Assembly: GCA_020912385.1 (NCBI GenBank)
Contig: CP087209.1
Span: forward strand, 3,286,001 to 3,350,000
Direction: 5' to 3'
DNA: 64,000 bases
DNA from: Neofusicoccum parvum
Taxonomy: Eukaryota; Ascomycota; Dothideomycetes; Botryosphaeriales; Botryosphaeriaceae
Of this stretch, positions 17,245 to 49,811 are shown piece by piece. The notes under the pieces were generated by a model. That model had not been told where the DNA came from. It made no database searches and worked only from the letters and a program-made list of their open reading frames with translations. Positions within the stretch are counted from its first letter, which is position 1. Every line of letters starts with the position of its first letter. The position numbers and the translations under genes were made by a program.

Positions 17245-17378
17245 CTTCAGCCGCCGCTGATGATCATTTGCATCCTCAGGAAGCATTCCCGGCCAGGCGC
17301 CTCATAACATTCACTTCTGCTCTCTTCGTTCTTCTCGACAGCCACTCTTTTTCCATCCAGAACAAAACACCAGTCAAC

Positions 17379-24844: not shown

Positions 24845-26252
24845 TCATGGGTTGGCTTCCCGGTCAGCCTTTTGCCTGGCCTCTTCACTCACAATTTCTC
24901 TAAAGTGCCAAAGCTGGCTTACGAGCCACCCCAGAAAGATGAGACCGATTAAGAGTGGATGTATTACAGTGACGAGGATCACGAGATAGCTGCTGTACCG
25001 GAATGCTTCGGTTGTCCATTTGGGATTTTCGGAGGCCCCCAGACTGACCTGCATGGCAGTGAGTATCAGACCTGTGTAGATGATGTACGCGGTGACGAGT
25101 TTCATGTGTTGTTGGAAGGCACTTTCTCTCCCGGATCTTGTGGCCCAGAAGTTCCACCCGTAGCCGCTAAAGAACGTGATCCAGTTGATTCTTCGAAGTC
25201 GCAGGTCTCCGTAACCGTATCTTTCGTGACAGTGATTCAGTACCTCGTCATCCATGCTCATCGTTTTCGATTTCTCGTCTTTCAGCATAGCCGCGTACGT
25301 CAGGCAATTCGTTTCGGACTGCTCATCGTCATTGTTTGTCGAGTTCCCGGAGCCATTGCCGCTTTTCCAACCCCAGCTGAGGGAGCTCTTTCTTGGGTTA
25401 CGGTGATTGCTTCGTCCGTGTTTGCGATAGCTTTCGTCACCTCTGAACTTTTCGCAAAGCTTGCGCCACTGTTCCCACCCACTTTTCTTTTCCGTGAAGT
25501 CTTCCGGAAGAAGCTTCTTCTCGACAGCAATGTAGTAGTCCAATTCGGAATAGATAAGTCTTATATATAAGTAGAAGAGATCTCTGCTCTTCTTGAAATC
25601 TCCGTGGTAGCCCGGATTAGAGAAAACAAACTCATATGCAATGATAGTAGACGGAAGAGGCTTGATGAAGTGTGTTGGTGGATCTTCTATCCCCATTAGA
25701 TGCAAGCCGGGGTCGTCCACTCGAGAGATTTCTCGACGGAAAAGCGTGATTGTTGATAAAGTATGGTAATTGCCCATAAATCCAGCCCAAATGAGCCGAG
25801 AGAAGATCTTTTCCTCCATTAGGAGATGGAAAAGTGGGGTTTCAAGATCTTTTTCCAGAATTGTCAACTCGCTCAAGTCCGCTGCCTTCTTGAAGTATTA
25901 GCTACATTCAGGTCGGTAGAGGTAGTCCTCATTTTGCAGGCTGGCTTACCATGCTGTCCGCTACAACAGGAGATGGCGCTTCTCCTGGATCCACAGACTG
26001 GCTCTCGCCTGTCGAATGCTGTTCGGCTCTGGGCTGGACTGAAAAGGCTGACAAGCCTGAGCCTGAGCTTTCGTGTCTTTGTTCAGGTTCCTGTGTAGAT
26101 GAAGATGGTCTCGGGATTGGTCTTGGAGAAACTAGCCTCTCCATCGCAGTTTGGTGCCCTGCGTGTTGAACAGCAGAAGAATTCGAGTCGGAGGTCAAAG
26201 GTGAGGCTTGACTCCTCGTCATTGATGGCTGCTTGTTTCCAGGTCTGGCCAT
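24845..26252 (-). CDS. DUF6601-like membrane protein
   Basis: Exon 1 (26252-25950) starts MARPGNKQPSMT and encodes a Ser/Pro/Gln-rich disordered head. A GTAAGC donor at 25949 and an AAG acceptor near 25886, after a CTAAT branch point, lead into exon 2 ending at 24845, for about 447 aa. The exact acceptor is uncertain because two AAG triplets are adjacent. The body carries YGYGDLRLRRINWI and LILTAMQVSLGA, and two closely spaced hydrophobic helices near the C-terminus. The same signatures (YGELRLGRLN, LTAMQVGLG) occur in the protein at 48070-49278, so the two are paralogues. The family is known to me as fungal membrane proteins of unknown function (DUF6601); no activity is inferred. Confidence 0.7.
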
Positions 26253-28016: not shown

Positions 28017-30027
28017 CTATCTTAAGGGTTTAAGCTTTACCATCAATGGCCCCTTCTCCCATAAAGTGAAGCACTTTTGGTCGGTCCATGAGAAACTTGC
28101 TGCGCAGAGCTCCAGGTCGAAGTGCCACAAAACTTTGGCCATGATTAGACGCATCTCATGGTACGCGAGGCTATAGTCTAGTTAGCAGCTGAGTTGAGAC
28201 GAAGGTTCGAACAGATTTGGCGCTTATCCGTACTTCTTGCTAATGCAGTTCCGTGGGCTAAGAGAAAATGGGTTCAGCGCATCTTTCTTATCATCATCGT
28301 AGCCCGAACTAGGAAGCTAGCGCTCCGGCACAAAGGAGTCAGGATCCTTGAAGTTTTGTGGCGAACGGTACGTCGACCATTGGTGGACCGAAACTCTCGT
28401 CTGTGGATGCGGCAGTCAGCAAAAATGACGACGTGCGTCGAGGACCAGCCCATGCAGCTTACCTTCGCAGGCAACCACTCGCCAAGAATGGTATTGCCAC
28501 CCTCGGGGATCTCACGTGGCAAGCCGATGGGAACGGGAGGGTAGACACGGAGGCCCTTAAAACAGGCCGCCATGTACTTGAGACGGGGCAGATTATCCAA
28601 GTTCAGCTGGTCCTCGGACTCCAATCCGCGGACCTCGTCAACCAGCTTCTTCAGCTTGTCTGGATTCGTGAGCAAGTAGAACGTCAAGCCGCTAAGGAGG
28701 GTCGCCGTGGTTTCTGAACCAGCTATCATGAAGAGCCCGGAGTTGGCATACATCTGCCTTAGGGTGAGCCGCTCCTCTCGCTGCAGCACGAGGTTCCAGA
28801 TATCGGGTTTGTCACTGTCTTTCGCCAGTCTCTTGTCCACACGATCTGCCGAGTGCCGGAAGTTAATTTGAGCCTTTTCTGCCAGGGACTTGGGCATAAG
28901 TGCTCGCGTGAGGTGGCCCAAAGTTGGGTACTCCAAGAGGAATTGAGACACCCCCGCGGCCTTGATGCTGGAGAAAACCACTTTGAGCCAAGGCGAGTAC
29001 TCGGAGTTCTTGAGCAGACCCAGCGATTCTCCGAAGCACAAGTCTCCCATGATGTCGAAAGTCGTTGTCAACCACATTAGCCCGCAATCACGTGTTTTAC
29101 TATTAGCCCAACGCTATTACACTAGCCTCCATACTACCCTTTTTTTTACCTTCTTACTACAACCGAGGTTATTATAATGGCTCCCGTATTCTTCCGAATG
29201 CGTAGTATATAGTCAGCTTAGATAGCTTTAATTTACAAGAGAGCGGCGTCTTCTTTTCTCGCACCGTTCGACAGTCGTGCAGTTGTACATTCTGACCATA
29301 TCGAGTTGGGCGACACCGTTGCTCGATGCCTCATGGCGGATGTTGCTAATCAGCTGGTCGATGTACGCGCTGATAAGGTTCCCTTGCGCTTTCAAGGCCT
29401 TGTCCGAGAAAGCTGGTGAGAAAACCCTGCGCAGCTTGCTATGAGCGGAGTCGTCGAGTAATGAGATAAGCGAGCGTTCTCCGCTCGCATCAGGACCGTA
29501 GAACATGACGTCTTTGGAGTTCGCCTTTTTGGGCCCCACTCTAGGGCCGTAGATATCCTTCCATGCTTGAGGGTCGGTGTAGCTTAGCCTGTTGGGACCA
29601 ATGCGCACCACATCGCCGTATTCGCGGTGGATCTTCTGGACCCAGGTGACGATATCGCCTTGGGAAGCGACAATCCAGTACACCAAACCGTTTATGGCGG
29701 CATATTTTGGACCTGGATCTAGGCCACCATGATTGTCAGATGCTGCTCTCGGAGGTTCGAAAAATGTTGCATTTTAGTCACGTTGGTATCACGTGTATTT
29801 ACATTCCACTGCGAGACGGTTAAGAAGGGGGCTTCCCCCACCTCCCTTCCCTCTTCGCGAGAATCCACTCATTTGACTGCCATCCTCAATTTTTTCAATA
29901 AAAAACCAAACGTACATTTGCGCAGTGGATGGAAAAAGAGGTTGTAGATGGCAGTGGCAACAATATGAATTAGAAACTGTGTCACCATAAATGAGCGCTT
30001 TCTCAAACAGGACATGCTGGAAGACAT
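28017..30027 (-). pseudogene. Cytochrome P450 pseudogene, interrupted by a solo LTR and RIP-like changes
   Basis: The gene can be followed as a CYP of the fungal isotrichodermin-hydroxylase-like type through exons 30027-29916 (membrane helix and NLFFHPLRK), 29718 onward (YPGPK, DIVTWVQKIHREYG), 28400-28234 and 28170-28017. Introns keep consensus ends, for example GTACGT at 29915 and GTAAGC at 28462. The frame is broken by a 208-bp insertion at 29066-29273, between NCTT and FDIMGDLCFGES. An in-frame TAG at 28319-28317 stands where the family has Trp (PER-W). The K-helix ExxR Glu is Lys (codon 28558-28556). The heme-binding loop reads FSLSPRNCIS instead of FxxGxRxCxG, with both Gly changed to Ser. 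All four changes are TpG to TpA. The I-helix (AGSETTAT) is intact. The product cannot be a working P450. Confidence 0.9.
29066..29273. mobile_element. Solo LTR (208 bp) inserted in the P450 gene
   Basis: The element starts TGTCAACC and ends CCGTTCGACA, that is TG...CA with short inverted ends TGTC/GACA. It is flanked by a perfect 5-bp target-site duplication GTCGT at 29061-29065 and 29274-29278. Removing the element and one GTCGT copy restores the P450 reading frame across the site. Length, termini and a 5-bp duplication fit a solo LTR left by recombination of a Gypsy- or Copia-type retrotransposon. It is AT-rich, with a TATA-like stretch near 29175 and a T8 run near 29140. A small TRIM element is an alternative. 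Confidence 0.88.
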
Positions 30028-30851: not shown

Positions 30852-31836
30852 CTATCTCTCCCGCATTCTCTCCCGCTCTTGCATGAGAATGTTATCGCTA
30901 TCCGTCTCAATATCCTGTGTATTGCCCTTCAAATTCGACGGAATCAGAGTACTTGGATGTTTCCAATTGAAGGCAATCATAGCCAAAAACATCAGCGCGG
31001 CATCGAAGATGAACAAGTACATCTCGTGTGACAGAAGCTCGCCATTGCGACCCTGGAGATATTCGATGAGGCGAAAAATAGAGCGAATCATTATAAGCAA
31101 GCTTGTAAAGTAGAGGATGCGGAGATAGGCTGCCCAGGAGATGGGTGTTATGTGGGATGCCTCGGTGGGATGCTTGTGCAGGCGCCAGTTGTAGTGGATG
31201 GAGACGAGGATGAAGAGGCCGAAGAAGAGGACCTGGATGATAAGACCGATCTTGACGAAGAGCTCACCCCTATTAGTGACACTCTTAGTATTAGCGCTTG
31301 CGAGCATCCCGCCGCCTGCGTAATTATTATGTCAGCCATGTACGTTGCGAGGACCCAAGGAACAGTCATACCGGCACCTTGAATAAGAAAAGAAAGGACA
31401 TCTCCCGCCACAAATATCTTCGTAAGCCACGTCACTCGGACGAGAGAAAGCTCTTGTCCTCTAGTGAGGATGATAATGCGGCCTAAGACCATGTAGATGG
31501 AGGCTGCGAAAAGGGCGGGAGCCAGAAGAAGAAATAGCGTTTGTATGATGTATAAACCGTGGGAGCTATGCGGGTACTGCGTGTGCGATATAACGCGGCT
31601 GAGATATCCGACAGCTTCAACTGCATTGATGTTAGAGTGGGATAGTAGAGGCCGGGGAGTTGTGTAAAACTCTTACAGACACCGCCAATAACGAAAGGAA
31701 TAAAGTACCAGGTACGGCGCCTCGTCATCTGCCAGATGTGAAATACAGTGGTTGCGGCAAAAAGAGCTGTAAATATGGCACCGGCCACCAAGCTGGGATT
31801 GTAATGCTTGTAATACCGGTCTACCTCGTCGGACAT
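30852..31836 (-). CDS. RTA1-domain seven-TM lipid-translocating exporter-like protein
   Basis: Three exons (31836-31677, 31620-31372, 31315-30852) with 56-bp introns (GTAAGA...TGCAG and GTATGA...ACGCAG) give 290 aa. Family landmarks appear in order once spliced: YNPSLVAGAIFTALF in TM1, YLSRVISHTQYPHSSHGLYIIQTLFLLLAPALFAASIYM-type TM2-3 sequence, TKIFVAGDVLSFLIQGAGGG, and the C-terminal IRSIFRLIEYLQGRNGELLSHE signature. RTA1-like proteins are plasma-membrane proteins linked to resistance to toxic lipids and azoles (RTA1, RSB1). The substrate of this one is unknown. The charged tail ends in QERERMRER. All reading frames are intact, unlike the neighbouring P450. Confidence 0.9.
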
Positions 31837-32780: not shown

Positions 32781-34986
32781 TTATATGACAGTAACAGTCG
32801 TAATTTTCCCAGGCCATCCGAAAGGATCCTCAGCTATCTTGACCGGAGGGAATTTTCCCTGAGCCTCCTCCACGTCAGAACGAACAGCGAGGATACCCAC
32901 GCGACGGAACAGTTTGTGTTTGAACCTCCCTTGTGCAGAAGAAACTTCCTCCACCAGCATGAAAACAGTACTGTAGTAATTGGAAGTTGTCTGAGCACCA
33001 CAAAGCCTGACTGCGCAACATGGGGCCGTTGTGTCTCGATCCATGCTACCCTCCAAATCTCTTCGTGCTCGAGATCTTTCCCCCATTTTCCCCAAGAGTG
33101 ATGACTTCAGAAACTCATCAAACAAACGATCATCTGTTACTAACGCACTTGGGTTAGTTGGTGAAGAATCTCCTACGATAGGTCGATGAAGAACTTGTGA
33201 GGAAACCGGGACTAAAAGGCCAGTAATATCGAGCCTGCCCAGTAAATTTCCTGCTCCCTTGCTGCTAGAGCTGAGATTGATTCGACTGACTGTGCAGTAT
33301 TCCTTGAAACTACCAGAAAAGCTCTCCAGTGGACGAAGCAAGTCCCAGGTGACTGGGGCATCCCATGCAGCCCAGGTCCATGATGGAGCACGGTATCTGT
33401 GGAGGACCGTCGGATGATCAGCTTTGCTAGCCCAGAGCAAGTCCTTAACTATATTCTCCTTCCACAGTCCTGCTACATAGGTCGCGCTGCAAGTATCCGG
33501 AGTTTGAAAGAGGGGTAAACCTTTTTCGAACTTCTGGGCCACTCCTGCGAGAGCCACCATCTTGTCTCCTTGGAACGTCAGTTTCCGCGCAGTATAGTGT
33601 TGAACAACATGGCGCCACGCTGACTGTTGGTCTGAAACTTGTGATCCATAACCTTCTGTATTCAAGTTGAGCAGACTTCGTCCATCGGCCTCAATAAGCT
33701 CTTCCGGTCGATCTTCGACGTAGACTCCCGCAGGGCATATCCACTCGATAAGACCGCGACCCATGTACAATATCGCAAACGCTAGCGCATGCTCTTGCAA
33801 GGTCCAGCCTCTTCCTCCCAATGGCTCTTTAGTGTCGTATTGACGCCACATATCGTTCTGGATGTACGCGTGGTCATTGCCCTCAAAGGTCGCCACACGA
33901 GCAGCTCGGCGGAAGCGTATTCCAGTTTGACTCCCTGGGGTGCTGTATGCTGACAATACGAGAACAGCTTGCTCGTACACCTCGCACATACGCAGTGCTT
34001 CTCTGGTCCAATCATCCTCATCGTCCTGGATGATGCAGAGAGCGTCGATCCACAGCCAGCGGAAACCAAGCTTTCTTGTGACCATGATCGCGTCTTTGAA
34101 AGTCTCTGGTAATGTGGTCTCTGTGATTCCCTGATTTAGGAATTTGTCCTTGGTCTCATGCAGCAATCGTGTCTTGATCAAGCCGCCCCAGCAATGACTG
34201 AGTGCCACATACTGTGCGCTTTTTCCATATGAGAGAACTAATCTTGGCGGGTGACTGTGCACATCAATCACGCGTGTCGGCAAGGCGGACTTCCCTCGAT
34301 GACAGTTTCCATGGCCGTTGATGCGATTGGTGCAATTGTCAATCCATGTTCGTATCTGAGCAAACGGTGCTCCGAACGGAAGCTGTGGAAAAATGTAATC
34401 TCCGGTGGTTGGCGAAAGTCCTGGGCCCGGGGCGCGAAATATGTTGAGAGATGCGGACTCCAGCAGATAATCTTGGGCCTTCCAGTCTTGGATTTGACCT
34501 GGATGGGAAAATAATACGAAGTCCCGTGAAGGGACATTTTCTCGCACAGTAACTTCGACGTATATCCACATGTGCTCCCACGGATCCGTCGGTCCGTTTT
34601 GGATCAAGCTCAAACAGTGCGGCGTGTGCCTATTCCACATAGACTCAAGGAGCACGTCACAAAGAGGACAGCTTGAGCTGGAAGAAGATTGTTGTGTTCG
34701 CTGCAAGAAGTATTGCCTCGGTTGATGTTGAAAGCCGTACTTGACCAAAGCACTCCGTGATTTGCGGGGGCTCTGCACGCGCTGCCATTTGTGGTGAAAA
34801 TTGTGGTTGAGAATATCTCGAACAAGGTTGTGGCAACAGTCGCAAAGATGTTGGTTGACATGGAAATTGATCTCTACGCCATCTCTTCCCGGTACCTAGA
34901 GCTTAGATGATTAGTGGAAGAGGTAGACGGACATGAGGCTGCTAAACAAGGTATGGACTGACAAGGATGCATACCGAATTGTCCAT
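32781..34986 (-). CDS. HET-domain (heterokaryon incompatibility) protein, Cys-rich N-terminus
   Basis: A 12-nt first exon (34986-34975, MDNS) is followed by a 79-bp intron (GTATGC...TCTAG) and a long exon 34895-32781, for 708 aa. No in-frame ATG precedes the conserved sequence in the long exon, which supports the micro-exon. Residues about 18-85 carry a Cys cluster (LCDCC, then CPLC) like the zinc-binding heads of many HET proteins. HET-block motifs follow: YVALSHCWGG at 233-242, FRWLWIDALCIIQDD at about 282-296, and GGRGWTLQEHALA. HET proteins trigger cell death on non-self recognition in filamentous ascomycetes. The gene sits tail-to-head with the kinase fusion gene and is transcribed in the same direction. 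Confidence 0.9.
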
Positions 34987-35715
34987 TGTGCATGCCACAA
35001 TACTAGGCCAATGTGTAAACTTGGAACGTTCTGGGAATTTCCCTGATGAGTACTTGAAGGTTCGTGGGAAGGATTTTTGTTACCCCACCATTAGCCGCAT
35101 ATTTGATCTGTCATGCGTGGGGGCCGGTTACAATGTTGTTTACATAAGCTAAACCTGTTTCACGCTGATTCGATGGCTTGAAATGATAGCTAAGAGCTTC
35201 ATCGAAGACCGCACTTTGGGACACCCCCTCATAGCACACCTTTCAAGAGTATATGCGAGTCTCAGTGTCTATAAAAAGACTAAAAGGTAGGGAGATGAAG
35301 TATTGATCTGGATTGGCTTGACAGTTTTTTGCACTATATTTTCCTGCCCGAATAAATGCTTCAATCACTTTCCTAATTCTACCAAGCCTCTGATAGCTAG
35401 AATTGTAGTTCCTGACCTCCGAGGGTATGATAGGAGGGTGTTTCCCGAACTTTGGCGTCCAGCAAAATGGCAAGTACAAATTGAGAAATGCGATGAAGAA
35501 GAAAGAGAACAATGAAATTTTAAAACAGTCACGGGTCATTAGGACATGCTATGTGCTAGCAGCTAAATTTACTCTGTCCGTTACAAGGCAGCTGCTGCGA
35601 AAGGTATATGGTGAAGTCTATCTTGGAACCCTGCCAGTCATTCAGCCAGATAGGAAAATGCTGCTATTTGGTGTCCATCGCTAGCACGTCACTTCTGGAC
35701 AGTAACGCGGATACC
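34987..35715. other. Spacer between the kinase fusion gene and the left HET gene
   Basis: About 730 bp of AT-rich sequence without a supportable gene. It must hold the promoter of the left HET gene. Confidence 0.5.
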
Positions 35716-38700
35716 TCAAGCGGATGTCGTAGATATCTCCTGCAGCTCTTTTATAACAGTATTGTAGAAGGCTGACTGCAGTTCCGCGGCAACAACAGGC
35801 GTTCGCTCATCAGGGTCTTTACTGAATCCAAGAGCCTCTGGTCCAGTCAGGCAAGACCGAACTATTTCGACGTACCGAGATCCGAGACTGAGATGTATTG
35901 TTCTTAGTGGCTCCTGTTCGTCGAGCAATCTCTGTCTGACTCTCATTACCGTGCTCGATTTTAAGCTGCGCTTATCAATCCCAAGGATACGGTTGATAGG
36001 CCTCCAGTTGGCAATCTCAATGAGGATGATTCCAAGACTGTAGAGATCGTGAAACTTTTTGAAAGGCTGATCACGGTCTCTGAGCACCAGTGGATGACGG
36101 TAAAGGTCCAAAAACGAGTTTTCCGGGGGCTTCACGGTCATATCGTCATTCTGAGCGGGGCGAGAATACGCAAATCCGGATAGGAATGGACTTGAAAAGT
36201 CGATACGTCCAGAGTGATGGCGGAAAAAAATGGTGCTGTCGCTGTTCAAGCCCTTGTGCAGCCAATTGGCCGCATGTAGATACAGAACACAGCGGGAGAC
36301 GGCAAGGGCTAATGACAGTCTCTCGGGCTTTTGTGGTATCTGAGTATCACTGTATAGCTCAAATAGAGACACCGGTTGTACCGAGCCATGTTTCCCTGCT
36401 GGAGCCTCGAAGACGCGCCCGAATCGGCAATGGTCCTCGCCGGTTTCAGGATCGATGTCACTGAAATAGCCGAGGCAGCGGGGCACTCGAAACTCTCTGG
36501 GTTTGTGCGGATCCCACAGCAGCGCTGCAAGCTCGCTAATCCTGCTGACGACAAGCGGATCTGGTTTGCCATCGAACCTTGTTGGCTCGTAATCACTCCA
36601 TTCAATCCAAACAGGTATTGAAACTCCCTTCGGGGTCCGGAAGAATGTCTGAGTACGTTCTGAAAAGCCAGAGAGATCGGAATCCTGATTCCAGCTTTCG
36701 TTGTGCATGAGCTGAGCCCGGTGGAGTTCGACATCGGTAATAGACGCGTCCTTAGGTTCGCCTCGGGAGATTCTCGTGTTAATAGCTTTGAATCGCGCAA
36801 ACCTAGCCAGTGCTTTGCGGTTCCATACACCAGGGCTGCCTTTCGAGGCATCTCCTGTCGTTTCTGGCAAGGTCCAGTGGCCCGCGTCATCGAGCTGAGA
36901 AGGCAGCAAAGCCGGCTTTACGGCCTCAACCAGAGCTGAGAGTTCTTGAAACGTGTCACAGAGTTGTAATAACTCCAAATTAGTCTCCTCATCTCGGTCC
37001 CGTAGAATTCCGCGCGGTGGTTGTGATACAAATTTCCTGAGATCTTTGTTTTTTTGTGACAGCTCTGTCAACAGCTTCTGCAAATCGTGCCAACGAACGG
37101 TCTTTGCTAGACGCTCAATGTCTATTTGTGGATGGGTTATTGTAGACTGGGCAGTGAGGACCTCTTTCAAGAACCTGTCGGCGCTGGTAGGAAAATAAGG
37201 CTGTCTCTGATCAAATTTCGTAGCCGATGTGCCTTCGGATTGTAATTCGAGTGATGCGGTTTCTAAGGCGCCAGTTGCTACGCTAGAGGACACTTGGAAG
37301 AATGGTTCAATGAGTGTTTTGGTCTGAACCAAGATATTGACTATGGTCCGGTGGTTCTCCGCAAGGTCGCTTCCCGGTATGGCTCTTTTCGTGTGGAGCT
37401 GGAGAACTTGTCCCCAGTTGAGTAGCCTGAGCATCTCAAAGCTGAGTTTTATTTCCTGAACCCGTCCTGGGAATTCTTCATTTCGCAACTTAAATGCCAG
37501 TGACAAAGTGTGAAGTCCTAGTCATGCATCAATACCAAGCATATATCCAGTCTTGGGCCTGGACTCACTGCGCATGACATCCGCAAAGGTCTCGAACGTG
37601 TATTGCATGGTGATCGGGTTGATCGGTTTCCAGCTGACTTCTGTGGCAGGACTTTCCATTATTAGGGCTGGTAATGTCAGCTTGCTATCTTCCGTGTAGA
37701 AGGCAGCACGGGGCTTACATTCGCTCTCGCCGAGAAAGTCGTCGGTTGTGGCTCCACTATCGTTGCATATGTCAACAGTGATCATCTGCTTCAATCGCAG
37801 CTCTGCCAAGCAGAAGTCACAGAAGAAATGCGTCCGAAGACCATCCTGGCCCTTTGTATCATGCGCGATCGTATTCAGAAGCTGGGACGCGTACGGACGC
37901 TTTTCTGGCTGCTCTTCAAGCATGATCCCGCACCACAGCAGCACTTTGGCTACCTGTTCATTATCCGTTGTTGATAACAGGTGCAACCACCGTCTTATTT
38001 CTGGAAGGCTCTCGTGGAAGATGTAGTCCTCATTGAGACTTTCGTATAGTTCTCTTAATGGCCGACCTGCTAGAACAGTGACCGCTTCGACGAAAACACA
38101 GCCGAGGGAGAAGACGTCAGACCGCGTGGCTCGCTCTCTCAATTTTGCAACCTCAGGTGCACAATACCGAAGTGTGCCTTGGAGTCGAGGGCCTCTGGTC
38201 ATGCTTTCCTTCGTCTGACTGAAATCGTTGGCAATCCCAAAGTCTGTGAAGAGGAAATTTGGCGCAGTTCCACTGCAGTCCAAAAGAATGTTCTCTGATT
38301 TGATGTCTTTATGCCGTACTAAACAGATATGAGAGTGTAGTCACAGAAAACTATGGATGGAGCTTAAACTCACTGTTGTGACCATGCATAAAGGCCAAAG
38401 CGGATGTGAGGCATCCGAATGCCCGGGTAATGAAGTTGGCCGTGTCTTCGTTCTCGATTATCTCTGGGTTGGCCAAGAAACTGTGAAAGTCGCATTCGGC
38501 AACGGGTGACATGAGAAGGCCTAGGCTCTTGCTGCTTTGATAGGCTCCCACGTACTGGACGACATGCTGATGACCGCTCAGCCGCTTGAGACTTGCGATT
38601 TCCTTCTCAAAGCTCTCGCGAAACTTTTTCTCGTCTTTACTGCTCAGTGAGGTGGCCGTGAACAGTTTCCTTGCCACTACCATTCCACTGACAACATTCC

Positions 38701-41144
38701 GAGTGCAGTCCACCTTGGCCCAGCCACCGGATCCAAGGTCACGGATCTTCTTGAAGGGGAGTATCTCCTTATCTGCAAAGCGAGTTATGTCGTCAGGATC
38801 TAGGTCTCTGATAAGGGATCGATATTGTAAGCGCTCAAACTTGGTTGCGATGTCCTTATCCTGGAAAAGCTCATAAAGCTGTCGATGGGAAAAAGGAAGT
38901 CCTTCATCGGTCTGTTTGCTTATTATGAAATGTTGTAGTAGATCTCCTCTTTTGATATGCTTCAGAATGAGGCACACCTTTGGTAACGAGACTAACAATC
39001 TCATCATATCTGTGGAAACTGATGATGCAAACTGATCACAATATCGCGAAAGTTGTGAGTGGATTTGTTGGACGGCACCGGTGTCTATGAAGTTGATGGA
39101 CCGGAGCCCGATGTCAACGTCAACCTGTGGCATATCCGACTCTTCTGGGAATTTTGACCATGGTAGGTTTTCCAAGAATTTTCCAATATCGATTGACTGG
39201 TTTGGGGGATCTTCTTCCTCCGAGTAATACGAGTCCCACTCGAGATGAAGACCAGTGGCTGATGACACCGACGAGCGTTGATCTTGGGTCACGCGGATCG
39301 AATCCCTTTCGTCACTTTCGGGGATATCGTGAAGTGGAGGAGCGAGCTTTTGGGATTGGCGATTGGTAAGTTGGCCGTCGGAACTCTCATATGCCTGCGG
39401 CGGACATATTCCATTGAGTTCTTCCTGTGGCCGTCTCCAGTTCATGTTCGTATATTCTAATACGCAACAGTTCTTGATATACAGCTGAGAAGGGTGTGAG
39501 GCGTGGATTTCCGCCATAAGACCTCGGGCAGAGATTCGGTTGTTTGGGTTGTCTCTCACCAATAACCTGGTCCAATAAATCGGGGGAAAAGCTGCTGGAT
39601 CAGAAATAGTCTCTTCTACCTTTGCGATCCAAGACAGAGTTGCTTCGATATTTTCATGATACGAGGGATGCTTCGTTCCATGCCTTCGTGAGAAACTCCG
39701 GATGTCAGAAATGCTTCGCCCATTCAACACAGTTGTCATTTCGAGGAAGACACAACCAAGCGACCACATGTCGCTTGCTGTTCCACGGTACTTCGGTGTA
39801 AGAGAGCTGCGTTAGCCAAAGCCCCTGAAATATGTGCAAGCAATAGCCTCACCTCGTCATTGGCAACCTCTGGTGCAGCATATTGAGGCGTGAAGTCCGG
39901 AATGGAGAGTAATGAGTTTGTAGAGCGCTGTTGCGTTGGACCGGCGATACCAAAGTCCGCGAGATACACCGTCGAAGACTTAATCAGAACATTTGCTGGC
40001 TTGATGTCTTTGTGGCGGACTCCAGCTTTATGCAAGTACGCCAAAGCTGACGAGAGGCATCCGAAGAAGGTCCGCAGTAAACTTCGTTGCTCTTGCGACA
40101 TTCCTTGGATGTCGAGGAAAGACGCCAGATTCATGTCGGCAACGGGGGAGATTAGAATGCCCATGGTGCGGCTGTCTACATATGATGCTACGTAGCTGAT
40201 CAGGTGCGCGTGCGAGATTCGTCTGAGTACTTGCATTTCGTTTTCGAGGCGTTGCCTTTGCCCTTTTGACCGTGCACCAAGTCCCAGATTGATGCGCTTT
40301 CGAGCATAGTGCTGTGTATTAGATTGGTCAATGACATGGTCAACTTGGCCAGAACCATCTGGACCAAGCTTTCCGACCTCTTTGAAGTAACGCTCAACTG
40401 GACGAGATCCACCTTGAGCGGCGTCTGGAGCTACCGACAGCTCGGCAAACGGAGTGGTGACTCTCCACTGCTTCTCCAGAAATTTCGGAATGTGCTGCTT
40501 GTCGTTCAAGATATTTTCGATCTCATCAAGCGTAAAAGGGAGGTCCTGGTCTGACATCCCCTGAGCGATGAATTCGTCCAGTACTCCGGGGCATCCCAGC
40601 TCTGAAAGCAAAGTGTAGAGGCGGGGATTTTCACTCCACGAGTATTTCTCTTGTGATTTTAACTGGCCAGAAATATGGAACAGTTCCCATTCCAACTGTT
40701 TAGAACTGTATTTCTGGTCGAATATTGCTGATACTGTCCACAAGGCACGCGAGGTTCGTGATGCGACCGTCGCTATCGTTTCTGGCTTGGTGGCGCGGGC
40801 ATAAGTGAAAGGGCCCACAAGCTTTGACCCAAAGGAAAATGGATTCCTCTGTGCTCCTCGAATGGAAGTGACGCTGGCTTTCTTGTTAAACGTGACGGAC
40901 CCATAAGGCTGGGATGACCTTGACGTTATCTGTCCCTCCGGTGACTCTCGTCTCGTCCAATCGCCATCTCCCAAAGACTCGAATTCCAGAACATGCTGCT
41001 TTGGTTGGCCATTTTTGCCATACAAAGCTTCTTGAAACTCTCGAAGCGTCTGAGCCGATTCGTTCTACTCTGAAGCGTAAGCTTGATTGGCATCGGGGAG
41101 ATGTCTACTCTTACCGTTGGCGCACCAACCAAAGTATCTGCCAT
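35716..41144 (-). CDS. Double HKD-type kinase fused to a HeLo-like region and pseudokinase (1736 aa)
   Basis: Five exons: 41144-41115, 41064-39853, 39790-38374, 38318-37569, 37517-35716. Kinase 1 (residues about 230-500) has Lys266, HKDIKPAN near 361, DFG near 380 and APE near 407; the intron after APEVANDE uses an unusual CCGAAG acceptor. Kinase 2 (about 760-1040) has the loop LGSGGWAKV at 766-774, Lys789, HKDIKSEN at 889-896, DFGIA near 912 and APE near 940. One uninterrupted exon spans the kinase 1-kinase 2 linker, so that fusion is secure. The last intron (GTGAGT at 37568, CTAG at 37521-37518) joins kinase 2 to a HeLo-like helical region (TFETFADVMRRLHTL, then LLNWGQ) and a pseudokinase (HKGLNSDS, LSGFAYS). 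Exon 5 has no in-frame ATG upstream and a TGA stop precedes it, so it needs that splice. Both kinases look active. Confidence 0.82.
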
Positions 41145-41430
41145 CGCGGGGTGAATGCAAGATGGTCTGTGCAAAGCTTAGTGGTGTGCGACAGTGGAGG
41201 AGACGATATAAGAGCAGCCCGCAGTTTGCGCTGAATCGAAGGTGTCCATATCGTAGCACGCAAGGCTGGAAGGATTCTCAGCTGACAACCTGTAGTGGGG
41301 GCTGTGCAGGTGCATGGCCTCTAACCGCATCCGAATCTCTCATCGCGGGGTAATTCAGCTTTCCACAGCCTCATGGCTCTCCAACGTCAATCGTTGTGAC
41401 ACTTTCACACACAACACTGTGGCGGTCGCC
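41145..41430. promoter_or_regulatory. Shared bidirectional promoter of the kinase and pseudokinase genes
   Basis: The start codons of two divergent, domain-related genes are separated by only 286 bp. Co-regulation is therefore likely. I see no clear TATA box. An in-frame upstream ATG at 41174 for the kinase gene would shorten the shared region slightly. Confidence 0.65.
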
Positions 41431-43068
41431 ATGGCAGACGTTGCATTTGGCGCTATTACCGCACTAAAAGAAGTCTACCTTGTCTCCAAATTCATTGCCA
41501 AAACAGCGCGATCGGCTGCGAGGCATCGAACCGAGCGATCTGCCATTATTTCAGAACTCGAGTATGAGCACCTCTACATTCGCAGCTTTGGTCTCCTATT
41601 TTTTCAGCGGAACGGTGTACTCGTATCGAACAGTGACCTCAACCGGGAGTGGGTGGAGAAGATTGCCTGGGTTCTCAACGAGCTCCGACTGGCCTTTGGA
41701 GACTACACACGCCTTGCGGCAGAGCAAGATGCTGAGTATCAGCAGTCCAGTCCTTTCCTAAACGGACCGGATATCCATGGTCAGATCGATTTCGAGGCAG
41801 ACTCGGCCCTCTCACAGGATGATCACGACTCCTCAGGAACTGTCACTCCGGCGGATGGCAAGAAACCGAGAAAGTTCAGCGACCTGGACTGGAGATGGGC
41901 ACTTCGCGACAAGAGGAAACTTCAGCAAGTGCTGACTGGGTCTCAGAAGTGGACAGGCAAGCTGAAAGAGCTTGTGCAATTATCCATGGCGGTGAACCCA
42001 AGATTTAGCCCTCTGTCAGCTTCACCCTTATCCGACTCTTCGATAAACATGAATGAGGATGCGCTTCAACTCCTTGGCTTATCAACACACATGAGATTGC
42101 GTCAGATAAATCTGGATCCCAGGACGACCACGCAACCCGTGGAGCTGGACTCCAAAACTGCCCTGGAGCTCCCCACGCAGCTGACCACCTTATCTTTGGC
42201 ACAACTGATAGAAAATGACAACATCTGCGATGTGCTTGTTGAGGTCAAGGAAGTGGCTGAGCAAGTCCAAGTAGAAGAGGAAGACCGTGTGCGGCAACTC
42301 GCCCAACTGCTCAGACTCTCTGGAACGTCTGATCTGTCAACGCTTCCATTTCGAGGCTATTCAAACCATGGATCGGAGAACAAATACATATTCGTGTACG
42401 ACTTCCCCGAAGGCGTTCAAAAGACTGCACCAACCACTTTACTTGAGACGATTAGCCGGCCACGTGAAGTTTTGCCTGGCCTTTCCCTGCCGCTGCGGTT
42501 CAAGATCGCTCAAAGCATTGCAAACTCACTTGCTGCTCTACACGCGGATAAGTGGGTACACAAAAGCTTCCGCAGTGAATCCATTGTATTTTTTAAGGAT
42601 TCCGACTCGAAAGTCGACTACAGCTGTCCTTATCTCGTCAATTTCGAGTACTCCCGCGCAGCAAGCGCTGCCACTGCCTGGACGTCAGACGAAGATGTAA
42701 TGAAAAATCTATACCGACATCCCGACCGCCAGCGGCCGCCACAGAGATCGTTCAATCAGATCCATGACTTGTACGCGCTTGGGATTGTTCTCCTGGAGAT
42801 CGGAACATGGTCCTCGATTTCTGCGACTAGGCATAGATTACAGGAGAGATTGGGCCAAAACACGTTCCTCAGCCCGGAAACCTTGGCAGAATGCTACACT
42901 GAGATTGCAAGCAGGGATTTGCCGCATAGCATGGGTCCCTCGTATGCTGAGGCGGTAGCAACGTGTCTGCGTGGACAATTCAGTGTCCCTGTTACCGACC
43001 CTGATTTTGCCCTTCGGGTATATGACTTGGTTCTCCGCAAATTGGATATTAGCAGTTTGCTTCAATAG
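41431..43068 (+). CDS. Helical-bundle plus pseudokinase protein (HeLo/MLKL-like layout)
   Basis: A single exon of 545 aa. The ATG at 41431 starts MADVAFGAITALKEVYLVSKFIA, the kind of amphipathic first helix that opens HeLo-type membrane-targeting bundles. The 39 codons open upstream are ignored. Residues 1-200 are helical. A middle linker is followed by a kinase-like fold at about 320-520 in which the catalytic motifs are lost: HKSFRSES replaces HRDxKxxN and VNFEYSR replaces DFG, while the F-helix signature HDLYALGIVLLEIG is kept. The same degenerate motifs (HKGLNSDS, SGFAYSR, HDLYSLGIILIEIA) end the divergent kinase fusion protein, so the two are paralogous. In fungi HeLo-type proteins are membrane-active cell-death effectors; here that is inference. 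Confidence 0.78.
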   Translation: MADVAFGAITALKEVYLVSKFIAKTARSAARHRTERSAIISELEYEHLYIRSFGLLFFQRNGVLVSNSDLNREWVEKIAWVLNELRLAFGDYTRLAAEQDAEYQQSSPFLNGPDIHGQIDFEADSALSQDDHDSSGTVTPADGKKPRKFSDLDWRWALRDKRKLQQVLTGSQKWTGKLKELVQLSMAVNPRFSPLSASPLSDSSINMNEDALQLLGLSTHMRLRQINLDPRTTTQPVELDSKTALELPTQLTTLSLAQLIENDNICDVLVEVKEVAEQVQVEEEDRVRQLAQLLRLSGTSDLSTLPFRGYSNHGSENKYIFVYDFPEGVQKTAPTTLLETISRPREVLPGLSLPLRFKIAQSIANSLAALHADKWVHKSFRSESIVFFKDSDSKVDYSCPYLVNFEYSRAASAATAWTSDEDVMKNLYRHPDRQRPPQRSFNQIHDLYALGIVLLEIGTWSSISATRHRLQERLGQNTFLSPETLAECYTEIASRDLPHSMGPSYAEAVATCLRGQFSVPVTDPDFALRVYDLVLRKLDISSLLQ

Positions 43069-43341
43069 TATTTTATCGAACCTGCAAGGAGGGAGGTTTA
43101 ACTTTATAATGAGACAGAATAAAGGGAACTTGCGCTTCTCCATCTCTCCCACGCTAAGAATCTACTGATTCGTCAGCAGATTCACAAAGTGACAAGTTCA
43201 TAGTTCGTGCTATGGATCTTTCACGAGCACGTGATACCGGGCCCCACTTGTCAATTTTTAAAAGAACGCGTGCGGGGTAGCCTCTGAAATTTCGTGCGGG
43301 CTAGCTCTTTAACCAAGCACTAACTATACCCACAGCACGCA

Positions 43342-45363
43342 ATGACAGCCTGGCGGGATAGCCTAAATCTTGGCAGCTCCTACACTCAGCTAAAAGATGG
43401 TGAAATCCGGCTCCTCAAATTTGAACAGCCTGGAAACAGTTCTGCTGCCCCCTCTATCCATCACAAGGCCCTCAAAGAAGCCCCTCCGTACTGCGCATTA
43501 TCATACAGATGGCAGAACGACAACGACAAGCGCGAGCCTGCACAGTTCAAAGGACACTGGCTCGATATAAGCGGCGGCCCACTGTCAGCAGTAGAAGCGT
43601 ATTTATCAGGACTTGTGGGGAGGAATCCCCATCAATGGTTTTGGATTGACCAGTTCTGCATTGATCAGTCGAACGTCGAGGAGAAAAATCAGCAGGTCTC
43701 AATCATGGGAGACATCTTCCGCAAGGCGTCTGAGACAATCATCTTTTTGGGCTCTCCTCGGGGTCCAACCGCCCATTTCCGAGGCGCGTTTGAGTTCCTG
43801 GAAGATGTTGCTCGACTGGACCCTCCATGGGAAAATACCAACGGAGGTGCACAGGGAGAAAGCAATCAAATGAGTTCATCGTTTGGAAGCACGGAAACAA
43901 AACTCCGGGAGCTTCTTGGCGGGGTCGTCGAACATCAATCTTTGGGGACGGTATCTGCTCTTGTCGCTGTTCTTTCTGCTCCATGGTTTAGCCGTGCATG
44001 GGTGGTACAGGAAGCTGTTCTATGTGACGCTTCCGTAGCACTATGCGGCCCGCTATCACTCGACTGGGCAAGATTCTGCATTGCAATCAAACGGCTCGAC
44101 AAGTTTGGATATCTTCGTAACATATCCAGAGACTTCCACACACCTCAGAATCCGTGGCAAAGAAGAGTCCAGACACTGAGACTGTTCTACAATCTCAAAT
44201 TGACCTTGAAGTCCAACAGCGCCTCAGGAAATGAACGCAAGCTAGCCAAACGCTGTCACTCAGAGAAGGGCATGAAAGCCTTGATCAAGTTATGCCGACC
44301 TCAAGAAGCAACAAACGAGAGCGACAAAGTTTTCGCGTTGGCGGGTCTCTGCGAGCCAGAAGACAAACCGGTCGTTGATTACGAACAGCCACCGGAGGCT
44401 GTCTACCGCAGCCTGGCACTTAGGATGCTGCAGGAGGACCACAAGCATTTCGGGGTCTGGGATTCCTCTTGTCCTTGGAACGCCCTCGGGGTTCTCGCTC
44501 TCGTCAACGCCGATTACGAAACAATTCCTTCACCGTCTTGGGTACCCGACTGGACCACGCCTCTGACATACAACGATTTATGGTTTGATTATGGAGTAGA
44601 TACCGGTTTCTGCGCATCCGGAGGACAACAGTACCGTCCAACTTCATCCGAGATGTCACCGGAGACACTTCTTCTGCGGGGGAAAGTGTGCTCCAAAGTC
44701 GTTTCAATTGGCAGAGACAGCATTCAAACCAGAGAAAATCGTGCCACTGCCATTCAAGCCACTGAGGACCTGACTGCAAGTTGGTGGAAAGTTTCGACAA
44801 GTAAGGATGAGTCGACAGCGAGTGAGAGGTTGAATCAATGGCTCCTGCAAGAAGGTGGATACCTCAGGTCCAACATGCCCGAGGATGGGCAGCGCGAAGA
44901 ACGTATAGCCAGAACACTGTGCGCCGGTATCAGGTTCGAGACGACCTCTGAATTCGTGAGACCCAGTCGCTGGCAGGATGTCAAGGGATTTGCTCCAATC
45001 TGGGAGGCATTCCAGACATATTCTCAAGGACTCTCTCAGGGAGGCTCAAGATCACAGATCACGGAGGGTGATCTGGAACCAGATGGACTTGAAAAATGCT
45101 TCAAAGCCTTCAGAATAGCTGCCGGTCTCGCATGCCGTGGTCGAAGACTTTTCATCACGGATGATCGGCATATTGGCCTTGGTCCGGGGAGAATGGAGGA
45201 GGGAGATATTGTCAGTGTCATCTACGGGGCCCATTGGCCGTTTTTATTGAGGCCTGTTGGCAAGCAGTTCCAGATTGTTGGGTACTGCTATGTGGACGGC
45301 ATCATGGGTGGTGAGATGACTGGCTGTGCGGACACCTCTGTTCAAGACTTTTGTATTGTTTGA
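43342..45363 (+). CDS. HET-domain protein
   Basis: An intronless gene of 673 aa. The HET core is near the N-terminus: YCALSYRWQN at 50-59, QWFWIDQFCIDQSN at about 98-111, and the third block APWFSRAWVVQEAVL at about 214-228. A conserved middle motif, NESDKVFALAGL, is the ExRDxxYALLGL-like element found after many HET domains. The C-terminal 300 residues end with a beta-rich module (GDIVSVIYGAHWPFLLRP...VGYCYVDGIM) common in this subfamily. No N-terminal zinc cluster is present, unlike the HET protein at 32781-34986, so the two are not close paralogues. It lies 273 bp downstream of the pseudokinase gene on the same strand. Confidence 0.92.
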   Translation: MTAWRDSLNLGSSYTQLKDGEIRLLKFEQPGNSSAAPSIHHKALKEAPPYCALSYRWQNDNDKREPAQFKGHWLDISGGPLSAVEAYLSGLVGRNPHQWFWIDQFCIDQSNVEEKNQQVSIMGDIFRKASETIIFLGSPRGPTAHFRGAFEFLEDVARLDPPWENTNGGAQGESNQMSSSFGSTETKLRELLGGVVEHQSLGTVSALVAVLSAPWFSRAWVVQEAVLCDASVALCGPLSLDWARFCIAIKRLDKFGYLRNISRDFHTPQNPWQRRVQTLRLFYNLKLTLKSNSASGNERKLAKRCHSEKGMKALIKLCRPQEATNESDKVFALAGLCEPEDKPVVDYEQPPEAVYRSLALRMLQEDHKHFGVWDSSCPWNALGVLALVNADYETIPSPSWVPDWTTPLTYNDLWFDYGVDTGFCASGGQQYRPTSSEMSPETLLLRGKVCSKVVSIGRDSIQTRENRATAIQATEDLTASWWKVSTSKDESTASERLNQWLLQEGGYLRSNMPEDGQREERIARTLCAGIRFETTSEFVRPSRWQDVKGFAPIWEAFQTYSQGLSQGGSRSQITEGDLEPDGLEKCFKAFRIAAGLACRGRRLFITDDRHIGLGPGRMEEGDIVSVIYGAHWPFLLRPVGKQFQIVGYCYVDGIMGGEMTGCADTSVQDFCIV

Positions 45364-47927: not shown

Positions 47928-48089
47928 CGCGGTGGATACTGGTTGTATATATATATACGTCTAAATAGAGTCCGGCTTCTACGCATACTTTGGCTTTATA
48001 AGGAAGAGATAGAAACATTGAATTGATGAAGAAGAGATAACGCCTTGGACATTCATTGCATATATACGTCTAAACAGAGTCCGGCTTCT
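47886..48089. repeat. Direct duplication spanning two convergent gene ends
   Basis: Copy A (47886-47980) and copy B (48000-48089) align over about 90 bp, including the shared block GAAGAAGAGATAACGC and the block AGAGTCCGGCTTCT. Copy A contains the true end of the HIT gene (stop 47925-47927) and a decayed version of the DUF6601 gene end. Copy B contains the true end of the DUF6601 gene (stop 48072-48070) and a decayed version of the HIT gene end. A (TA)n stretch near 47945-47957 is longer in copy A. Confidence 0.88.
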
Positions 48090-49278
48090 GCACGTCCTTC
48101 TTTATGCCCATAGTTCCGAACCGTTTCTTCTCATAAATCTTGGTGACAAGCACGTTCCAGAGAACCAAAATCACAAACACGGCAAGCACCAAGGCGATGG
48201 CAATGAGAGGCGCAACTATAGAAAAAACGGTGAACCCATACGACGCATCCTGGAAGAGCTGGCTCTCCTGCAGCCTGGTGGTGCCCAAGCCGACCTGCAT
48301 GGCGGTCAGCACGATGACGATGTAGCCCAGCACGGAGGCGAGGCGGGTGAAGTTGTCCTCGAAGAAGTCGGCGGACTGCGAGTAGCGGAACCAGTAGCCG
48401 CGGAAGTTGAGCTGGCGCAGCCGGTAGATCTTGTTCAGCCGGCCTAGGCGCAGCTCGCCGTAGTGGAAGCGCTCGTTGATGTTGCCGTAGACGGTCGGCG
48501 GCGCGTGCGCGAGCAGCTGCTCCGTCAGCTCCTTCCACCCCCACCACGTCACCTCGCTCGGCACCAGGCCCTTGTCGTGCGCGATCTTGAAGTCGCTCTC
48601 GTGAGAGATCAGCGCCGTCCAGCTGAACAGGAAGCCGGCCGCGCAGGGGGCCAGCTCGGCCGTGGAAGCGCCCGTCTGCGGCCATGGTTTCGACCACTGC
48701 CTGACCAGAGCTTTGCTGTCACCCGGCGTCAGGTACATCCGCCAGAAGTCCGGAGAAAGCAGGAAGCGTGGTATTGGCTTCAGAAACATGAAGCCCTTGG
48801 CCCACACGAGGTGCAGATTCATGTCCTCGGTGAGGACGAGCTCCCGGCGGTGAACCAGTTGGGCGGTGAGGGAGCGAGGAGGCATGGGCCTCCCCACCAC
48901 CCACATCGAGTCATGGATGGCGTTCAGTCGAGGCACGCACAGCTCTTTGGTCAGAAAGGCGCGGCATCCGGGCCTCGGGGTCTCGATGTCGTCGTCGGCG
49001 TTGCGCCACGTGGCTGGCAGCAGGCGGAGGATGTGTCGCGGCGTTGTTGGCTGACCGTCGGCCTGTCCACCTCCTCGATGCGGCTCTTGTGCTGGTCTTA
49101 ATCCAGAGGGTGTCGACTGAGCCGGCAGCTCGGCAGCCTTTGGATTCTGCAGCACGTCAACCGTGAATGGGGGGAAGAAGGGTGATCTTCCGGTTCGTCT
49201 CTCAGCAGTGGTTCTCCAGGTAAGTGCAGCGTGCGCGGGATATACGAACAGCGGTTGTGGCTTCTCGGCTTGGGGCAT
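48070..49278 (-). CDS. DUF6601 family membrane protein
   Basis: A single exon of 402 aa with an ATG at 49278. After a Pro-rich head, residues about 110-400 carry the block I associate with fungal DUF6601: ELCVPRLNAIHDSMWVVG, RPMPPRSLTAQLVHRREL, MNLHLVW, FLKPIPRFLLSPDFW, FHYGELRLGRLNKIYRL and IVLTAMQVGLG. Two C-terminal transmembrane helices (IVIVLTAMQVGLG; VAPLIAIALVLAVFVILVLW) and a basic tail follow. The function of the family is not established. A paralogue lies at 24845-26252. The 3' end sits inside a local duplication shared with the HIT gene. Confidence 0.85.
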   Translation of the reverse strand: MPQAEKPQPLFVYPAHAALTWRTTAERRTGRSPFFPPFTVDVLQNPKAAELPAQSTPSGLRPAQEPHRGGGQADGQPTTPRHILRLLPATWRNADDDIETPRPGCRAFLTKELCVPRLNAIHDSMWVVGRPMPPRSLTAQLVHRRELVLTEDMNLHLVWAKGFMFLKPIPRFLLSPDFWRMYLTPGDSKALVRQWSKPWPQTGASTAELAPCAAGFLFSWTALISHESDFKIAHDKGLVPSEVTWWGWKELTEQLLAHAPPTVYGNINERFHYGELRLGRLNKIYRLRQLNFRGYWFRYSQSADFFEDNFTRLASVLGYIVIVLTAMQVGLGTTRLQESQLFQDASYGFTVFSIVAPLIAIALVLAVFVILVLWNVLVTKIYEKKRFGTMGIKKDVQKPDSV

Positions 49279-49811
49279 CGCGCGATTGGAGACGTACGTG
49301 CTTTTCGGCGCCTTCGGTGGTGTTCTGGGTGATTCCGTCGGGTTGGCGCCTCAGATCAAGAGCAGCCTCGTGCTTTTTGTTGGAACTTGGAGTGGGGCTC
49401 TGCAGGCGGCAAGGCCGAGTCGAGTACATGCACATGTGCGAGGCGCATCATCTTAGCGCGCGGTGGGGTCAGTCTCGGCAGCGGCTCCTGCCGCGTATCC
49501 ACCAACGAGCTGTCCACTCTGCCAGCCTTCTGGGACCCCCTTTCGATGAATTTTCCAAAGTGGATGTTCTGGAAGCACGGGTCGAAGGAGACACAAAGCC
49601 AGGGTGGAGTCTTCATCAAACGAAGCGCACCTCCGGGTAGTGTCTCTGTGGTGGTCACTGCATCTTCAAAGGTAAATCTAGGACGTTTCTATATTAACTA
49701 ATACTTCGTGTCTACGCTCTTCCCATAAATCATTACTATACGTCGGGGATATTTAATTACGTAAGGAAACACATGGCGAAAAAAGAAAAAAGAGACCCGC
49801 TCGCTCAGTGA
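49279..49811. other. Spacer between DUF6601 and polyketide synthase genes
   Basis: Both flanking genes are on the minus strand, so this holds the DUF6601 promoter and the 3' UTR of the polyketide synthase. No gene is recognised. Confidence 0.5.

Follow-up and report, generated by a model that had tools for sequence, protein, structure and literature searches.

The window, a 64,000-nucleotide stretch of a contig (CP087209.1) of the plant-associated fungus Neofusicoccum parvum, carries between positions 32781 and 45363 four adjacent genes, all of them genuine, in the order HET1, kinase fusion, HeLo-related pseudokinase, HET2. The first-pass annotation had proposed this order and its domains, and both were confirmed by Pfam scans and gene models, as was the head-to-head arrangement of the two central genes around a common region of 286 bp. 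The features are as follows:

32781..34895, minus strand: HET-domain protein 1 (HET1), a 704-aa open frame whose start may lie upstream; PF06985, 103.3 bits
35716..41144, minus strand: tandem-kinase/HeLo-pseudokinase fusion gene, predicted 1,736 aa, hand-built on GT/AG sites
41144-41115, 41064-39853, 39790-38374, 38318-37569 and 37517-35716, minus strand: predicted exons of the fusion gene (stop included)
39853..41064, minus strand: main exon of kinase unit 1, with helical pre-domain and kinase to APE; the C-lobe resumes at 39790
38374..39790, minus strand: C-lobe of kinase 1, linker, pre-domain and start of kinase 2
37609..38318, minus strand: remainder of kinase 2 (HKDIKSEN, DFG, APE) and linker to the HeLo module
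35716..37608, minus strand: HeLo-pseudokinase module, Met1124 (presumably the original start) through stop, including intron 37568-37518
41145..41430, no strand: intergenic region common to the divergent pair, 286 bp between the two start codons
41431..43068, plus strand: intronless gene of the 545-aa pseudokinase protein, a HeLo-related helical N-terminus followed by DUF7580
43342..45363, plus strand: HET-domain protein 2 (HET2), 673 aa; PF06985, 76.5 bits

Both HET proteins exceed the PF06985 cut-off of 22.5 bits, and the HET2 gene begins 273 bp past the stop codon of the plus-strand pseudokinase gene.

The minus-strand fusion protein

The predicted 1,736-aa minus-strand chain consists of two successive units, each a helical region with an active-looking kinase, followed by a complete HeLo-DUF7580 module. 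It had been described from the sequence as a double kinase/pseudokinase fusion; the two motif-intact kinases and the pseudokinase hold, while the HeLo module of the protein itself had been overlooked. In Pfam scans, PF00069 matched kinase 1 with 99.4 bits (ORF 39736-41064), ORF 38351-39811 with 58.7 bits and kinase 2 with 69 bits (ORF 37522-38340). The motifs are intact in both units (ARK 264, HKDIKPAN 361, DFG 380 and APE in kinase 1; ARK 787, HKDIKSEN 889, DFG 912 and APE in kinase 2). With the beta-3 Lys, the HRD Asp, the catalytic Asn and the DFG Asp all in place, the two units are predicted to be active Ser/Thr kinases. They share 30% identity over 374 columns (E 1.8e-46).

Among 17 kinase-relative loci scanned in the same genome, one has a HET domain in the same frame (L040) and two have ankyrin repeats (L041, L047). 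In addition, the relative P0004 contains both a kinase of the same type and a HET domain. A kinase joined to HET or ankyrin repeats is a combination associated with non-self recognition genes.

The fusion model is a splice prediction, and the models of the deposited relatives are presumably automatic. The fusing splice is also used in the deposited Neofusicoccum ribis protein P0001, whose model starts late and omits the C-lobe of kinase 1; we count such models as support, not proof. Retention of intron 37568-37518 would terminate the fusion protein at the stop codon 37524-37522. A main model of two separate minus-strand genes, namely a kinase gene ending at this stop and a HeLo-pseudokinase gene starting from Met1124, was rejected because the second start falls inside the last kinase exon, because N. 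ribis uses the fusing splice and because the Diplodia intermedia protein is fused. A separate second product may nevertheless arise by intron retention or from an internal start.

The fused module keeps the presumed start Met and the intron of a stand-alone HeLo-pseudokinase gene. This intron has the same position and phase (phase 1) as that of the stand-alone HeLo-DUF7580 gene on contig C6 of the same genome. Therefore, judging from the gene structures, the fusion seems to have arisen by the joining of a whole HeLo-pseudokinase gene to a tandem kinase.

HeLo-related regions and DUF7580 pseudokinases

The plus-strand protein is made of a HeLo-related helical N-terminus and a pseudokinase, a layout similar to that of MLKL. 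Its structure model displays four long helices (2-28, 30-59, 68-88 and 154-187), which may form a four-helix bundle. It also has the C-terminal pseudokinase expected of an MLKL-like executioner. The first-pass description of a HeLo-pseudokinase partner is thus right for the HeLo-related N-terminus, the pseudokinase and the layout, but the protein does not match PF14479 (HeLo) itself: a Pfam scan with a maximum E of 1 did not find this domain in it. PF14479 was found at E ≤ 0.01 in 23 of the 42 plus-family members, the window protein not being among them. When four relatives were scanned singly against the curated cut-off of 23.2 bits, P0139 (26.4) and P0141 (25.6) were above it, P0126 (19.1) was below and P0122 had no match. 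The plus protein, which is not itself a Pfam PF14479 member, therefore appears to be linked to HeLo through intermediates. The minus protein matches PF14479 at the level of the cut-off, with 23.3 bits for the window ORF and 26.5 bits in the own-genome search; its fusion relatives score 22.8 (N. ribis, below the cut-off) and 25.3 (D. intermedia, above it).

We also used hhalign to compare these regions with six HeLo domains of the same genome, which gave 96.4% for the plus N-termini and 84.5% for the minus HeLo, as against 0.1% for a control with the pseudokinase half. With a mixed set, composed of these six and five database sequences, the plus N-termini reached 92.8% and 94.9% and the minus HeLo 90.5%. 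The own-genome set was preferred because the five database sequences had been drawn from the search with the plus protein. Compared directly, the N-terminal regions of the pair gave 4.3%.

The fused HeLo of the minus protein has an internal, weakly hydrophobic helix 1 (maximum mean of 0.29, vs. 0.59 and 0.63 in two HeLo domains of the genome), and the HeLo half of the structure model has low confidence. The plus protein has a free N-terminal helix of moderate hydrophobicity (0.48). This difference bears on the idea that the fusion protein is by itself a complete system, with sensor helices, kinases and executioner, the plus gene encoding an inhibitor or decoy made in matching amounts thanks to the common promoter region. 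A whole HeLo-pseudokinase module that retains an intron and what was presumably its start Met, together with two divergent starts 286 bp apart, would be consistent with such a system. However, the available part of PMC10197012 presents an N-terminal helix as the means by which HeLo killers act, and it is the plus protein that carries a free one. We consider this explanation improbable.

DUF7580 is a pseudokinase, that is a kinase fold with the catalytic Asp missing. Fold searches found a kinase fold in both DUF7580 domains of the pair, which display HKG/GFA and HKS/NFE where kinases have HKD/DFG. The HRD Asp is missing in all 42 aligned plus-family members, and the beta-3 Lys position holds K in 41 of them, the remaining one having a gap. 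Close paralogy between the two pseudokinases of the pair, as proposed in the first pass, was rejected: the minus DUF7580 is nearest to the C6 gene. The literature search found no paper on DUF7580 by name.

The plus-family profile matches 192 solved sequences, the best 60 of which include KSR, IRAK4 and MLKL; among these 60, KSR pseudokinases rank best, and both KSR and IRAK4 come before MLKL (chains 4btf, 4m68 and 6vbz). RAF-type kinases are near the top of the fold searches. These searches are filled by kinase-domain chains and are uninformative on the helical half, for which missing hits to the MLKL bundle or HET-S are no evidence. The ranking would suit a signalling module in which the fusion and the HeLo-pseudokinase act as a scaffold, as KSR does for RAF and MEK, in a stress or developmental pathway, the helices serving to dimerise or to dock to the membrane. 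The broad distribution of the plus family and the weak hydrophobicity of helix 1 in the fused HeLo also point in this direction. Against it, homology to HeLo indicates membrane-acting death domains, according to the available part of PMC12881547, and some of the kinase relatives are joined to HET or ankyrin repeats. A signalling scaffold is, in our opinion, rather unlikely.

Conservation of the pair and its HET neighbours

The kinase/HeLo-pseudokinase fusion was also found in N. ribis (P0001) and D. intermedia (P0002). As for the occurrence of the pair in other genomes, a check proposed with the first-pass annotation, the N. ribis proteins bear neighbouring locus tags (SLS56_000323/000324) and are 94% and 97% identical to those of the pair. 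In Diplodia, the two proteins are known from different species, the fusion in D. intermedia and the partner in D. seriata. A database search gave 48 matches to the plus family, including Pyrenochaeta, Kalmusia, Imshaugia, Neopestalotiopsis and Fusarium among the named ones, while DUF7580 and kinases occur together in only 2 among 120 proteins listed, both from Botryosphaeriaceae. Thus, many plus-family proteins may do without such a fusion partner.

A head-to-head arrangement on contig C15, between a DUF7580-like gene (L073) and a kinase-ankyrin gene (L047), was set aside as a second divergent pair. The DUF7580 match of L073 is under the cut-off (18.6 of 27 bits), and its N-terminus showed no HeLo relation (0.1%). 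By chance, 0.11 head-to-head DUF7580-kinase pairs within 5 kb are expected.

The genome contains at least 150 HET matches, 19 DUF7580 matches (two at the locus) and 75 kinase-like matches (four at the locus). The window has a GC content of 47-54% between 22 and 48 kb, vs. 55-71% outside, and some 90 kb separate the pair from the contig end (C4). Moreover, 18% of the listed HETs have another HET within 12 kb. Abundant accessory genes with fast turnover (HET, kinase, DUF7580) could therefore have come together near a contig end without any common pathway. The fusion present in two genera and the neighbouring tags of the two highly similar N. ribis genes argue against such a coincidence for the pair, and we regard it as quite improbable.

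The flanking HET genes had been presented as parallel or linked effectors, and this part of the first-pass reading is weak. We counted the places with a listed HET within 10 kb, using 150 HET matches listed among 267 candidates (HET2 not being one of them), 25 DUF7580 places (the 19 plus 6 from a further search) and 23 kinase places drawn from the 75. A HET was found near 4 of the 25 DUF7580 places and 5 of the 23 kinase places, two in each case belonging to the locus studied, and near 1 of the 7 HeLo places, which is this locus, vs. 6.6% of random positions. Among 81 database matches to HET2, the best is 47% identical and none is named Neofusicoccum, which is at most suggestive of the allelic polymorphism expected of incompatibility genes. 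Genome-wide proximity being unremarkable, HETs numerous and HET2 without close relatives, the inclusion of HET genes in the system is not convincing. We consider the linkage of HET1 to the pair incidental or unproven and that of HET2 incidental or unstable; each gene probably stands alone as one of a very large family, within a stretch richer in AT. A looser kinase-HET link is favoured by L040 (one frame) and P0004 (both domains). No paper on heterokaryon incompatibility via HET domains in Neofusicoccum was found.

A candidate two-gene death module and known systems

We propose, with close to an even chance of being right, that the pair is a regulated cell-death module of the incompatibility or immune type, in which the kinase fusion would control its MLKL-like partner. 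The plus protein would be the executioner, its HeLo-related helical domain preceding a pseudokinase as in MLKL, and the minus protein the controller, combining duplicated helical-kinase units and a second HeLo-pseudokinase module in one chain. Once activated, the controller kinases would phosphorylate the partner pseudokinase in trans and perhaps their own in cis. The HeLo-pseudokinase of the controller might act as a docking or nucleating arm gathering partner molecules, whose helical domain would then be released to the membrane, leading to cell death.

On the side of a death module, we note the domain content, the motifs, the kinase fold, the HeLo relation, the fusion in two other species, the homologous intron and the HET domain or ankyrin repeats attached to some related kinases; on the other side are the weak internal helix 1 of the fused HeLo, the 4.3% of the direct hhalign comparison, the cut-off-level PF14479 match and the ranking of KSR and IRAK4 above MLKL.

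A more specific reading is doubtful but worth stating: a kinase-driven, NLR-free fungal necroptosis, in which a chain combining tandem active kinases with an MLKL-like HeLo-pseudokinase, in effect RIPK3 plus MLKL, would seed and phosphorylate a distinct MLKL-like executioner expressed from a putative common promoter region. In the source extracts available, amyloid templating by NLRs switches on the best-described fungal HeLo killers, and other such killers form part of NLRs themselves. If true, this reading would mean that fungi control HeLo/MLKL-type killers by kinases as well as by the known amyloid route. The pair offers a concrete two-gene test for phosphorylation control, the animal mode, in fungi. 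A 2025 review calls, in its available part, for work on how closely fungal necroptosis-like death resembles necroptosis (PMC12881547). No title or abstract opening among the papers listed by HeLo/kinase searches describes a kinase fusion with a divergent HeLo-pseudokinase.

Like animal MLKL and plant MLKL-like proteins, the plus protein has a helical N-terminus then a pseudokinase, with the HRD Asp lost and the beta-3 Lys position kept in its family. It differs from them as a fungal DUF7580 protein with a HeLo-related N-terminus; moreover, the adjacent gene encodes its possible activator, which is itself joined to a HeLo-pseudokinase. The RIPK3-MLKL analogy of the first-pass annotation survives in that motif-intact, active-looking kinases lie beside an MLKL-like helical/pseudokinase protein, their putative substrate. 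The simple two-protein picture needs revision, since the kinase protein has two tandem kinase units and its own HeLo-pseudokinase module in the same chain.

To our knowledge, no divergent HeLo-pseudokinase partner accompanies plant tandem kinases or kinase fusions. In the extracts available, Yr15, a tandem kinase-pseudokinase immune protein, likewise joins both domain types, and Pm13, a kinase fusion protein, has a kinase linked with an MLKL-type bundle (PMC10951266). These are plant proteins, and the order and number of their domains differ.

In fungi, some HELL domains sit in kinase/pseudokinase proteins, thus with a HeLo-type domain and a kinase or pseudokinase in one protein, and such death pathways often form clusters of two or three genes; the part of this review available to us describes neither tandem active kinases on a HeLo-pseudokinase nor a divergent partner (PMC12881547). 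The HET-S/NWD2 and HELLP/PNT1 clusters, as presented in the available parts of PMC12881547 and PMC10197012, likewise associate a HeLo/HELL effector with a controller. Here, the controller would be a kinase protein, and Pfam scans of the pair, P0001, P0002 and P0122 detected no NACHT, NB-ARC or STAND domain. Finally, the incompatibility locus het-V of Podospora, as presented in the accessible part of PMC9262711, resembles the pair in having two genes, one for a modifying enzyme (methyltransferase) and one for an MLKL/HeLo-TUDOR protein, with methyl marks and a TUDOR reader there, and kinases and pseudokinases here.

Gene order and the predicted minus-strand fusion

The window (C4:3286001-3350000) belongs to a 44-Mb genome of 18 contigs, and the end of its contig lies about 90 kb from the gene pair described below. 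The following features were considered:

17244-18353, plus strand: pectinesterase match
24845-25897, minus strand: DUF6601 gene
28274-29113, minus strand: cytochrome P450 match
30852-31331, minus strand: RTA1-like match
32781-34895, minus strand: HET gene (HET1)
35716-41144, minus strand: kinase-rich gene (the fusion)
41431-43068, plus strand: DUF7580 gene (the plus gene)
43342-45363, plus strand: HET gene (HET2)
48070-49350, minus strand: DUF6601 gene

The order of the four genes from HET1 to HET2 proposed in the first-pass annotation was confirmed from stop-to-stop frames, sequence and Pfam matches, and the sequence bore out the head-to-head arrangement of the central pair, with 286 bp between the divergent start codons. 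The stretch from 22 to 48 kb has a GC content of 47-54%, versus 55-71% outside it. The two distant DUF6601 genes (29% identity, 119 columns) are situated near either edge of this AT-richer stretch.

Joining the exons of the minus gene at GT/AG sites gave a predicted chain of 1,736 aa. It contains two units (30% identity, 374 columns), each made of a helical-looking pre-domain and a kinase, and motif inspection found ARK, HKD...N, DFG and APE retained in both kinases. The C-terminal part of the chain (residues 1124-1736) consists of HeLo and DUF7580 domains. Intron 37568-37518 (minus strand), at the fusion joint, has a length of 51 bp, which is divisible by three, and an in-frame stop lies close to its 3' end. 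If this last splice is omitted, the frame terminates at 37524-37522. With the intron retained, the predicted product is a kinase-only chain of 1,151 aa, and a switch between two products is possible.

Conservation of the pair and of its HET neighbours

The pair is conserved beyond the source genome. Its closest named relatives are the Neofusicoccum ribis proteins P0001 and P0121, which points to Neofusicoccum (Botryosphaeriaceae) as the probable source genus, with identities of 94% and 97% for the pair; the deposited protein P0001 (1,407 aa; 94% by BLAST) shares 1,364 of 1,407 aligned residues with the fusion and has exactly the same fusing junction. A Diplodia intermedia protein (P0002, 42% identity) is fused at the same place and displays Pfam matches to kinase, HeLo (25.3 bits) and DUF7580. 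Among the 120 listed of 133 matches, DUF7580 (PF24476) is printed in the domain lists of P0001 and P0002 only, some lists being incomplete and the search covering 7,992 scored candidates of about 955 to 3,038 aa, a range outside which shorter or split relatives would fall.

Of the 43 differences between the fusion and its N. ribis relative, 16 are concentrated in the HeLo part, at residues 1201-1300 (binomial 1.7e-8, for a stretch chosen post hoc). The clustering may stem from a relaxation of constraint, in a loop that is loosely folded (pLDDT is low at model residues 77-136 of the HeLo half), or from diversifying selection.

The first-pass annotation also proposed the flanking HET proteins as parallel or linked effectors. 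These genes are real, but the best of the 81 HET2 matches reaches only 47% identity, versus 94% and 97% for the pair, and none carries a Neofusicoccum name, which suggests that HET2 is absent, unannotated or diverged in N. ribis. The HET frame is probably not part of the pair's system. In a control with 150 HET places and contig extents approximated by the last match, 6.6% of random positions had a HET within 10 kb and 0.26% had one on both sides, while 18% of the listed HETs had another within 12 kb.

Probable origin of the fused module and proposed division of roles

We searched the source genome for paralogs of the fused HeLo-pseudokinase module. The nearest is a stand-alone HeLo-DUF7580 gene on contig C6 (46% over query residues 229-597; 34% over 679 columns against the whole module). 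This gene (L030:1401-3459, about 1888.4-1890.4 kb) encodes 663 aa, with a strong HeLo match of 100.6 bits. Its protein starts with MDAVSLTFQVFSACMK and the fused module with MQYTFETFADVMR. The phase-1 intron of the fused gene has a counterpart in the first intron of the C6 gene, which is also in phase 1 and interrupts a codon at the corresponding alignment position. The simplest reading is that a tandem kinase gene acquired a complete HeLo-pseudokinase gene, including start codon and intron; the C6 gene serves as a model of the module's ancestor.

Pfam gave no HeLo match in the plus protein of the window. In its family, 23 of 42 members have one at E <= 0.01, and two of four relatives scanned singly were above the cut-off. 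When profiles were aligned with that of six HeLo domains from the same genome, the plus N-termini scored 96.4%, the minus HeLo 84.5% and the pseudokinase half 0.1%; direct comparison of the plus and minus N-terminal regions gave only 4.3%. The N-terminal helix of the plus protein is free and moderately hydrophobic (0.48), whereas that of the fused HeLo is internal and weaker in hydrophobicity (0.29). We therefore infer that the plus protein would be the executioner, with control or docking falling to the fusion.

Related kinases and known systems

The kinase search returned 75 matches in the genome, four being the minus gene itself. Our domain scan covered 20 open frames at 17 loci (L036-L052), leaving aside L053-L064, which include the window's own L061, and matches without a locus. 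A winged-helix domain precedes the kinase at three loci (L046, L049, L051), ankyrin repeats accompany it at two (L041, L047), and a HET domain is in frame with it at one. The latter, L040:1-3615 (C2:927425-931039), is a single open frame with a kinase of the fusion type (144.5 bits) and a HET domain (96.3 bits), a natural kinase-HET fusion. In addition, near a contig end (C15:24125-31093), the DUF7580-like gene L073 lies head to head with the kinase-ankyrin gene L047 across about 1.9 kb, an arrangement that could be due to chance.

The pair is real and of more interest than an ordinary gene cluster, and it would probably act in cell death. In the open PMC literature, searched mostly as listings, no description was found of a HeLo-pseudokinase gene divergent from one for tandem kinases fused to a second HeLo-pseudokinase. 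Fungal HeLo/HELL domains are related to the MLKL bundle, some HELL domains occur in kinase/pseudokinase proteins, the systems are often organised as clusters of two or three genes, and the best-known examples are activated by NLRs via amyloids (PMC12881547, PMC10197012); het-V is a two-gene locus, encoding an enzyme and a HeLo/MLKL protein (PMC9262711). The general kind to which the pair belongs is thus already known.
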